Positions 51,206-64,000 of a stretch of DNA of 64,000 bases are shown one piece after another. The notes beneath the pieces were generated by a model. The model was not told the DNA's origin. It made no database searches and saw only the letters and a list, made by a program, of their open reading frames with translations. The stretch's first letter is position 1. Every line of letters starts with the position of its first letter. The stretch comes from an uncultured Clostridia bacterium (GTDB lineage: Bacteria > Bacillota > Clostridia > UBA1212 > UBA1255), in contig CAJFUB010000043.1 in NCBI GenBank assembly GCA_904420095.1, positions 1 to 64,000 of the forward strand, read 5' to 3'. A program made the position numbers and the translations under genes.

Positions 51206-51496
51206 TTATCCGGTACAGTCTCTGCGTTTTCTTACCTCTTCATATTTCGCTTTCGTTGCCAAGCCTCCGCGGATATGGCGCTCGGCCTTGTTTCCATCCA
51301 ATACCTTTCGGACTTCTTCCGCAAGCGTGCCGTTCAGGTTCGGCAGGCGGTCTACGAGGTCTTTATGTACGGTTGATTTGCTTACTTCGAACTTTTTGGC
51401 CGCCGCACGGACCGTACAGTTTGTATCCAGTATATACTGCGCGACCTCGTAAACGCGGTTTTCTATGTAGTCCTTCAGAATTACAGAATGGTTCAT
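51206..51496 (-). CDS. spoIIID: Sporulation transcription factor SpoIIID
   Basis: A 96-residue DNA-binding protein of the mother-cell sporulation programme. It aligns with SpoIIID along its length: YIENRVYEVAQYILDTNCTV, the helix-turn-helix AAAKKFEVSKSTVHKDL, ERLPNLN-like DRLPNLNGTLAEEV and RHIRGGLATKAKY. It tunes sigma-E and sigma-K genes. Start ATG 51496 has AGGGGT about 10 nt upstream; the TTG at 51505 is too near. This and spoVM (63080) are the best evidence that the organism forms endospores. Confidence 0.95.
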   Translation of the reverse strand: MNHSVILKDYIENRVYEVAQYILDTNCTVRAAAKKFEVSKSTVHKDLVDRLPNLNGTLAEEVRKVLDGNKAERHIRGGLATKAKYEEVRKRRDCTG

Positions 51497-61451: not shown

Positions 61452-62303
61452 TTAGCATAATTTTCCGGCGCTGTCCACCGTATGCTTTAACAGGACAGAC
61501 GTCGTTACGGCGCCCACTCCCCCGGGGACCGGCGTAGCTGCCGCCGCCTGCCGGGAAGTGCTTTCATAGTCAAAATCTCCGCACAGCTTCCCGTCCAAGA
61601 AATTGATGCCGACGTCGATCAGTACTTGTCCTGCCGAGGTATGCTCTCTGCCGATCAGCTTTGCTTTTCCCGCCGCTGCAATAAGAATGTCCGCCTCTCT
61701 GCATTCTTTCCACAGATCCCGGGTCTTCGTATGGCATACTGTAACCGTAGCGTTTCTGTGCGTCAGCATTACGGCGAGCGGAAGGCCGACCACGGAGCTC
61801 CGTCCGACCACCGTGACCTTTTTCCCCGTAACGTCGATCCCGTAATATTCCAGCAGTTCCATTACCGCCTGCGGCGTACATGGGGCGTAAGCCTCCGCTT
61901 TTCCGTCTTTTGCGGCAAGCAGGCCGCCCAGACTTGCATACGACATGCCGTCGACATCCTTTTCCATCCGAATCAGACGTTTAATCCTATTTTCATCCAA
62001 ATGCGCCGGAAGAGGCCGGAACAGCAGGATGCCGTGAATCAAAGGATCCGCATTCAGAGCCTGAATCGCTTCCTCCAGCTGCTCCTGATTCGTATTTTCC
62101 GGCAAAACGAATTTCCTGATTTCAGCCCCTGCTCCTGCAAAGCGTTTTTCCGCGCCTTTTTCATATGCTTCGTCGTCGGCTCGTGCGCCAAGCCGCACGA
62201 TCGCAAGCGTCGGCACAATATTTTTTTCCTTCAAAGCCGCAAGCTTTTCCTTGCAGGCCTCCGTAATCGCGGCGGCCACAGGGGCGCCTCTTAATTCTGT
62301 CAT
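61452..62303 (-). CDS. folD: FolD-like methylene-tetrahydrofolate dehydrogenase lacking the cyclohydrolase lysine
   Basis: A 283-residue FolD. The C-terminal NAD(P) domain is standard (VTVVGRSSVVGLPLAVMLTH, VLIDVGINFLDG, TPVPGGVGAVTTSVLLKHT), as is KDVDGMSY with the Asp. In the N-terminal domain the family's YxxxK reads YEKGA: Tyr47 is present but residue 51 is Ala instead of the catalytic Lys, although spacing to LPE downstream is unchanged. That Lys is needed for the cyclohydrolase step in bifunctional enzymes. The adjacent fchA (4-nt ATGA overlap) encodes a separate cyclohydrolase, so this protein may act only as dehydrogenase. Confidence 0.9.
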   Translation of the reverse strand: MTELRGAPVAAAITEACKEKLAALKEKNIVPTLAIVRLGARADDEAYEKGAEKRFAGAGAEIRKFVLPENTNQEQLEEAIQALNADPLIHGILLFRPLPAHLDENRIKRLIRMEKDVDGMSYASLGGLLAAKDGKAEAYAPCTPQAVMELLEYYGIDVTGKKVTVVGRSSVVGLPLAVMLTHRNATVTVCHTKTRDLWKECREADILIAAAGKAKLIGREHTSAGQVLIDVGINFLDGKLCGDFDYESTSRQAAAATPVPGGVGAVTTSVLLKHTVDSAGKLC

Positions 62304-62926
62304 TCTCCGTTTCCTCCTGTCAAAGCTTCTTCTACCGCGGCGTAAACGCTTTCACAGCGGACGGCCTGTTCGCCGCAGAGCCGTTTCGTTTCTAGGTTAA
62401 TGTTTTCAGCATAAGCGCGGTCTTTCATCAGCTTCGTATTGATATATACGTTCAGCGCCGCGCTGCGCAGCGCCATGGCGCAGGCTGCCGCAGATACCCC
62501 GACGTCGCTGAGGACAAGCCGGGAGCCCTTAACCGCCAGCTCCTCCAGAAGGGGGACAAGTCTGCAGGCCTCGCGTAAAATTTCGAGGGGGGCAGTACAG
62601 GCGACTCTGAGCGCTTCTTCCAAAACCTGCTCGCGGTTGGGAGCCTCCTTCGGAATCCCATACGCTTTAGAAAGCGGCTCGAAGGCTTCCGCATCCTTTT
62701 CAATCAGGTTTTCCATGGTTTCGGTAATTTCAGCCGTCTCCCGCGCGATCCGATCGATATCCTCCTGATATTGCGCGTATTTCTTCTTCCCGGACGTAAG
62801 AGCCGCAACCATGGAGCAAAGCGCGGAGCAGAGCGCTCCCCCCAATGCCGCCGCGCCGCCGCCGCCGGGAACGGGCGCTGCGGAACCGAGTTTTCCAAGA
62901 AATTCCTTTATTGACAAATCTATCAT
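62300..62926 (-). CDS. fchA: Methenyl-tetrahydrofolate cyclohydrolase FchA
   Basis: A 208-residue all-helical protein of the formiminotransferase-cyclodeaminase C-terminal family. SIKEFLGKLGSAAPVPGGGG is the signature start, with AALGGALCSALCSMVAALT, the DAEAFEPLSKAYGIPK region and a C-terminal helix pair. It interconverts 5,10-methenyl- and 10-formyl-tetrahydrofolate (or deaminates formimino-THF) in one-carbon metabolism. AGGAG precedes ATG 62926 by 7-8 nt. It is the first gene of the long operon, behind the promoter at 62958-62986. Confidence 0.92.
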   Translation of the reverse strand: MIDLSIKEFLGKLGSAAPVPGGGGAAALGGALCSALCSMVAALTSGKKKYAQYQEDIDRIARETAEITETMENLIEKDAEAFEPLSKAYGIPKEAPNREQVLEEALRVACTAPLEILREACRLVPLLEELAVKGSRLVLSDVGVSAAACAMALRSAALNVYINTKLMKDRAYAENINLETKRLCGEQAVRCESVYAAVEEALTGGNGE

Positions 62927-62957
62927 ATTTTTTCTCCTATAATTAAATTTCCCGACT

Positions 62958-62986
62958 ATATTATCATAAAATTGCGAAAATCACAA
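62958..62986 (-). promoter_or_regulatory. Promoter of the fchA operon
   Basis: On the minus strand: -35 TTGTGA, 17-nt spacer, -10 TAATAT, 31 nt before the fchA start. Confidence 0.6.
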
Positions 62987-63079
62987 ATATGGATTCTATC
63001 CCTTTTCAGACTTTTAACCTTTTCCTCCGCTCCGGAATATAATGGTAGTAAATGCTGCCACAGAATTTGAGGTGTGACA

Positions 63080-63160
63080 ATGAAGATTGTTGTAATAAAA
63101 CCTCCGAAGCTCATCAGCGGCCTGCTCAGGACGGCGTTCGGAATGAAACGGACGGACTAA
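63080..63160 (+). CDS. spoVM: Spore-coat morphogenetic peptide SpoVM
   Basis: A 26-codon gene in an otherwise empty gap, with GAGGTG 5-6 nt before ATG 63080 and TAA at 63158-63160. It starts MKIVVIKPPKLISG and ends GMKRTD. Length and key positions equal Bacillus subtilis SpoVM (also 26 residues): MK at the start, IKxPK with the helix-shaping Pro at position 9, Gly at 14, Arg at 17, Gly at 21, and R-x-D at the end. SpoVM is an amphipathic helix that recognises the curved forespore membrane and anchors SpoIVA. It overlaps the convergent tmcAL stop by 3 nt. Confidence 0.88.
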   Translation: MKIVVIKPPKLISGLLRTAFGMKRTD

Positions 63161-63999
63161 GGAAGCGATACGTAAATCAGCGGGTGTGTCAATTCAGAGC
63201 AGCCGATGCGCTGATCCTGCGCAGGATATCCCAGCGCATACAGCTCTGCGGCCCGGTTTTCCGTCCGCAAAAACAATTTTGCCGGCGCGGTTTCCGGCAG
63301 ATCCGCGGCTGACTTCAGAAATTTTGCCTTCGAAGTAATCACCGGAACGCATGCGCGTTCCGTGAGCGCGTCCATGAGCGGGCCGCAGCCGCGGTTCATC
63401 CCCAAAATCCGGATATACGGGGCCGGCATTTTTATCATTTCACGCGTAATGCCCAGGATCGCTGCAAATACAATGCGGCGGATCCGCGACGCGGTATAGC
63501 GGAGCGACGTACACGTCCGGATCAGCGTTTCAAACGACGTAGCGGAACACGCCGCCGAATAAATCTTGTATTCCAGCCCTTCGGCCACAAACGGGCAACT
63601 CCGCAGTCCTTCTGCGCCTAAGAACCGAAGCGCAGCAAGCACGGTCTGATCAAAATGCTCCGATAATACGGGGCTTTTTCCCGTTTCCATCTCTTTTTCC
63701 AGTAAATTTGCCGCAGTCTCTGGCATCAGCGCTTTCCAGGAAGCCTGCTCTGCCGCAGAAGATGCGCTGCCGATCAGGCTGCGGATCTGTCCGGCGCTGC
63801 CGGGCTGATCATGTGCCGAGCCCTTACGCGTTACCGTGATCGGACGAATTTCAGAGGCATGCCTGTGCAGCGCCCGGATATATTCGGCTCCAAGGACATC
63901 GTTTGGCGCTGCGACGCCCGGTCTGTGCGCTGCGGCGGCATAGGATCGGCCGCCGCGCAGGCTGCCCCGATCAAGCTCCGGGCCATGAGGCGTCCGAAG
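63157..63999 (-). CDS. tmcAL: tRNA(Met) cytidine acetate ligase TmcAL, N-terminus outside the window
   Basis: The frame is open to the right window edge (about 280 codons). The visible part has APNDVLGAEYIRAL and ITVTRKGSAHDQPGS, then SAGQIRSLI, typical of the nucleotidyltransferase-fold TmcAL (YlbM) family, which makes the acetyl-cytidine at C34 of elongator tRNA-Met. The following 190 residues match the C-terminal domain (IKMPAPYIRILGMNRGCGPLM). The N-terminal nucleotide-binding HxGH region lies beyond 64000. Its stop is within the end of spoVM on the other strand. An internal ATG at 63726 is not the start. Confidence 0.85.
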   Translation of the reverse strand, partial: LRTPHGPELDRGSLRGGRSYAAAAHRPGVAAPNDVLGAEYIRALHRHASEIRPITVTRKGSAHDQPGSAGQIRSLIGSASSAAEQASWKALMPETAANLLEKEMETGKSPVLSEHFDQTVLAALRFLGAEGLRSCPFVAEGLEYKIYSAACSATSFETLIRTCTSLRYTASRIRRIVFAAILGITREMIKMPAPYIRILGMNRGCGPLMDALTERACVPVITSKAKFLKSAADLPETAPAKLFLRTENRAAELYALGYPAQDQRIGCSELTHPLIYVSLP

Positions 64000-64000
64000 C

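Follow-up and report, generated by a model that had tools for sequence, protein, structure and literature searches.

A predicted spoVM gene between fchA and tmcAL in the genome of an uncultured Clostridia bacterium

Results

The 26-codon gene and its identity

The window, by which we mean the whole 64,000-nucleotide stretch of DNA analysed here, comes from the 2.56-Mb genome of an uncultured Clostridia bacterium (G000) and carries near its end a frame (63080-63160, +) that translates to the 26 residues MKIVVIKPPKLISGLLRTAFGMKRTD* (Table 1). A preliminary description of this DNA had placed here a 26-codon spoVM gene with its own ribosome site in an apparently empty gap, and both parts of that claim stand: in the 230-nt gap that runs from the start of fchA (62926) to the stop of tmcAL (63157), spoVM is the only credible gene, and it is preceded by GAGGTG, with similar G-rich ribosome sites also found before most other spoVM orthologues. 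Compared with named genomes, the neighbouring tmcAL has distant relatives alone (26-38% identity). An Rfam search of 62000-64000 revealed no RNA, and a plasmid-origin search of the spoVM region gave no match.

Table 1. Coordinates of the spoVM gene, its surroundings and related loci. Positions refer to the window unless a contig is named.
Feature	Position	Strand	Remarks
spoVM	63080..63160	+	ATG-TAA frame, 26 codons plus TAA; profile match, conservation, PDB match
Ribosome site GAGGTG	63069..63074	+	5 nt before spoVM ATG
ATATAAT, possible -10 element of spoVM promoter	63037..63043	+	Recurrent ATATA[ACT]T motif
fchA-like methenyltetrahydrofolate cyclohydrolase	62300..62926	-	Divergent neighbour; NF045657, 170 bits, below curated cut-off
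tmcAL (3' part, runs past window end)	63157..63999	-	Convergent neighbour; stop overlaps spoVM stop by 4 nt
spoIIID	51239..51475	-	122.7 bits, over cut-off
spoIVA	C39:95877-97349		728 bits, cut-off 459.9, same genome
Loci of the observations on G004	L096 = G004:C58:6500-10893; G004:C68:4139-4933		Genus member without detected spoVM

NCBIfam contains a model made for SpoVM, SpoVM_broad (NF033436), and the profile search that the preliminary description had proposed gave 34.4 bits (E 1.5e-8; curated cut-off, 31 bits) over residues 1-26 of 26, the single SpoVM match in the genome. A search of all PDB sequences, up to E 10, returned 2mvh (stage V sporulation protein M) as its sole match; because the E value of 0.16 is weak alone, as expected at such short length, the assignment as SpoVM is carried by the profile match. 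No Pfam model matched the peptide. Compared with 2mvh, the B. subtilis SpoVM (MKFYTIKLPKFLGGIVRAMLGSFRKD), the window peptide has equal length and 11 of 26 identical residues (M1, K2, I6, K7, P9, K10, G14, R17, G21, R24 and D26), in agreement with the earlier statement that it has the exact length of SpoVM and its defining residues. Of the functionally required residues K2, I6 and I15 (PMC5607322), the first two are present and the third is conservatively replaced by Leu; Pro9 is retained as well. For residues 11-23 we calculated a helical moment of 0.35, a value reached by 33% of shuffles and weaker than that of B. subtilis SpoVM (0.41, reached by 6% of shuffles). Judged by its sequence, we take the 26-codon gene to be a real spoVM and an ordinary member of an established family; the peptide is new, and the family is known and already recognisable by an existing curated NCBIfam model.

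Conservation within the genus

Of the four further genomes available for the genus, three (G001, G002 and G003) also have spoVM in the gap between fchA and tmcAL, with an intact frame, 81-85% identity and no internal stop; the broken frame or stops in close strains that the preliminary description had raised were found in none of the genus members having spoVM. Changes between G000 and these three genomes at codon positions 1/2/3 number 2/2/15, 4/3/18 and 6/2/19, and pN/pS is 0.07-0.09, a rough value with synonymous sites near or beyond saturation. Such a pattern marks a peptide that is translated and under selection, and it points to strong purifying selection in the genus. With SpoVM_broad, the peptides of the three genomes score 15.8-22.3 bits, under the curated cut-off.

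The fourth genome (G004, 97% complete) has spoIVA, spoIIID and a spo0A match, and neither spoVM nor tmcAL was detected in it. Its fchA is adjoined by another gene, for a membrane protein that we take to be YitT-like, and no SpoVM-like peptide occurs in the 3.2 kb past that gene, up to the contig end. G004 shows no decayed spoVM frame because the neighbourhood of fchA is rearranged, and spoVM was either lost in the course of that rearrangement or lies on a contig that the assembly lacks. The best spo0A match of this genome contains one in-frame TGA.

Gene order around spoVM

As in the window, fchA lies upstream and tmcAL downstream of spoVM in G001, G002 and G003, with additional sequence carrying another gene between fchA and spoVM in G001. 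The sister genus (G005 and G007) has tmcAL downstream, again as a convergent neighbour; its upstream flank consists of nth and the gene of a small membrane protein (cluster c3). In other families of the order (G016, G019, G021 and G020) the order is nth, c3, spoVM, rpmB; in G018 and G029 the nth, c3, rpmB set flanks spoVM in opposite orientation. The cluster names nth, rpmB and recG were given by reading the sequences, without a family search, and presumably hold. Through the series fchA-spoVM-tmcAL, nth-c3-spoVM-tmcAL, nth-c3-spoVM-rpmB, the window gene is connected with the standard locus via intermediates; its flanks appear to have been replaced stepwise, with positional orthology running through intermediate genera. 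The usual reported clostridial neighbour of spoVM is rpmB (PMC5607322), which is kept in relatives of the same order and does not adjoin the window gene; the rpmB neighbourhood is common among carriers, not defining, and the window offers a clear example of a spoVM parted from it.

Upstream sequences

In 10 of 20 orthologous loci, among them related pairs (G000, G002, G003, G005, G007, G018, G019, G021, G029 and G044), the motif ATATA[ACT]T starts 37-44 nt upstream of the start codon. This frequency is no independent test, since we chose the motif by inspecting these very sequences; one more match, in G045, lies at -23. The -10 element of sigma-E promoters is CATACAMT, which this candidate element resembles. 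A scan for the sigma-E consensus upstream of the spoVM orthologues gave nothing above shuffles, G000 included, with G044 as the sole exception. Upstream of spoIVA in G000 we found CATATACT.

Partner genes and their co-occurrence with spoVM

The preliminary description had also reported spoIIID at 51.2 kb, and a match over the cut-off was obtained there (Table 1). In B. subtilis, SpoIIID is the mother-cell regulator needed for spoVM expression (PMC5607322). G000 further encodes SpoIVA and a spo0A match (214.6 bits, over cut-off). Its SpoIVA ends NEGSGGLICIIL; counting back from the alignment end, model position 486 is Gly. In B. subtilis, a genetic interaction links Gly486 to Ile6 of SpoVM (PMC5607322), and the window peptide retains Ile6. 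Among the 58 genomes compared, spoIVA occurs in 35 and spoIIID in 35, and the co-occurrence of spoVM with both is positive: neither gene, nor a credible spoVM, was detected in g4 (7 genomes of the same family) or g11 (6 genomes of the same order).

Within the order, G020 is the one exception to this joint absence. Here the c3 membrane gene and rpmB enclose a SpoVM-like frame (L061, G020:C1:71203-71283) that follows a good ribosome site, and the genome (92% complete) gave no spoIVA or spoIIID match; the frame is a relict, has another use or reflects an incomplete assembly.

N-terminal proline variants

The window peptide has Pro8-Pro9 (PP), the rest of the genus Pro8-Pro9-Pro11 (PPKP), and genus g7 (G018 and G029) Pro8-Cys9-Pro11 (PCKP), without Pro9. 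The Cys9 orthologues (L062/L063; G029:C15:41333-41410 and G018:C15:14368-14445) read IKPCKP and LKPCKP, and lie at the standard locus in genomes with spoIVA. They are noteworthy because Pro9 was the sole fully conserved residue among SpoVM sequences compared earlier (PMC5607322). Another SpoVM-like peptide, MKVVVFKASKLWSKLLKSIFKMNT (L024, G046:C5:51118-51186), has Ser at position 9 and scores below the family cut-off.

Discussion

We conclude that the gene is almost certainly the genome's single spoVM, and its product probably anchors the coat by holding SpoIVA at the forespore; within this analysis, the basis is the identity of spoVM, its coding constraint, its positional orthology and its co-occurrence with spoIVA and spoIIID. 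SpoVM occupies the mother-cell membrane that surrounds the forespore, where it favours convex surfaces and anchors SpoIVA (PMC12004969). By analogy with B. subtilis and C. difficile, the 26-residue, presumably amphipathic peptide would most likely be made in the mother cell during sporulation, insert into the convex outer forespore membrane with a similar preference for curvature, and bind SpoIVA, which would polymerise into the basement layer of the coat. An uncultured clostridial genome is confirmed to carry the coat-anchoring module. Counting against this interpretation are the below-cut-off scores of the three other genus members, the modest and unremarkable helical moment of the window peptide, the absence of a clear B. 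subtilis-type sigma-E promoter, and G004, which has spoIVA yet no detectable spoVM.

The frame is just 26 codons long and abuts tmcAL, as might be expected if it were a product of chance or a signal of a longer tmcAL on the opposite strand, but the profile score, the third-position bias and the persistence of the frame at loci with other genes on both sides leave this explanation with practically no probability. The tmcAL frame ends at 63157, and the two genes are convergent neighbours in G005 and G007 as well. The conservation pattern already refutes a tmcAL signal, and a chance open frame was rejected on the same grounds, the frame being kept in relatives with mostly third-position changes. 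An alternative that qualifies rather than replaces the assignment is that the peptide is SpoVM by descent but matters little, or only under some conditions, as in C. difficile, whose SpoVM is largely dispensable and whose spoVM mutants still form functional spores (PMC5607322). G004, which keeps spoIVA, spoIIID and a spo0A match without spoVM, is in line with such a role, although it may simply lack the contig bearing spoVM and tmcAL. Both the strong purifying selection on spoVM within the genus and the Gly486 of G000 SpoIVA, which C. difficile has replaced, speak against a minor role, a tentative reading that we hold to be less likely than not.

For the spoVM assignment, the loss of the rpmB neighbour and the proline-rich N-terminus are minor variations. 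We consider it unlikely, if conceivable, that this Clostridia order has a shifted SpoVM kink and that curvature sensing may rest on differently placed prolines; if true, such a kink would be the natural counterpart of the proline-shift variants of P9A made in the laboratory, according to the description of Kim et al. 2017 given in PMC12004969. The divergent natural SpoVM peptides of the order would in any event provide ready-made variants for curvature-sensing assays, and the use that the preliminary description foresaw for the window peptide in such assays is plausible.

Compared with B. subtilis SpoVM (2mvh), the window peptide has the same net charge of +5 and differs at 15 of 26 residues, bearing out the earlier remark that most other positions differ, with Pro8-Pro9 in place of Leu8-Pro9; the B. 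subtilis gene adjoins rpmB, whereas that of the window adjoins fchA and tmcAL. C. difficile SpoVM, likewise clostridial, shares Ile6 and Pro9 with the window peptide (PMC5607322). Its gene lies near rpmB, unlike the window gene, and in the C. difficile SpoIVA an Asn stands where B. subtilis has Gly486 (PMC5607322), whereas the SpoIVA of G000 keeps Gly.
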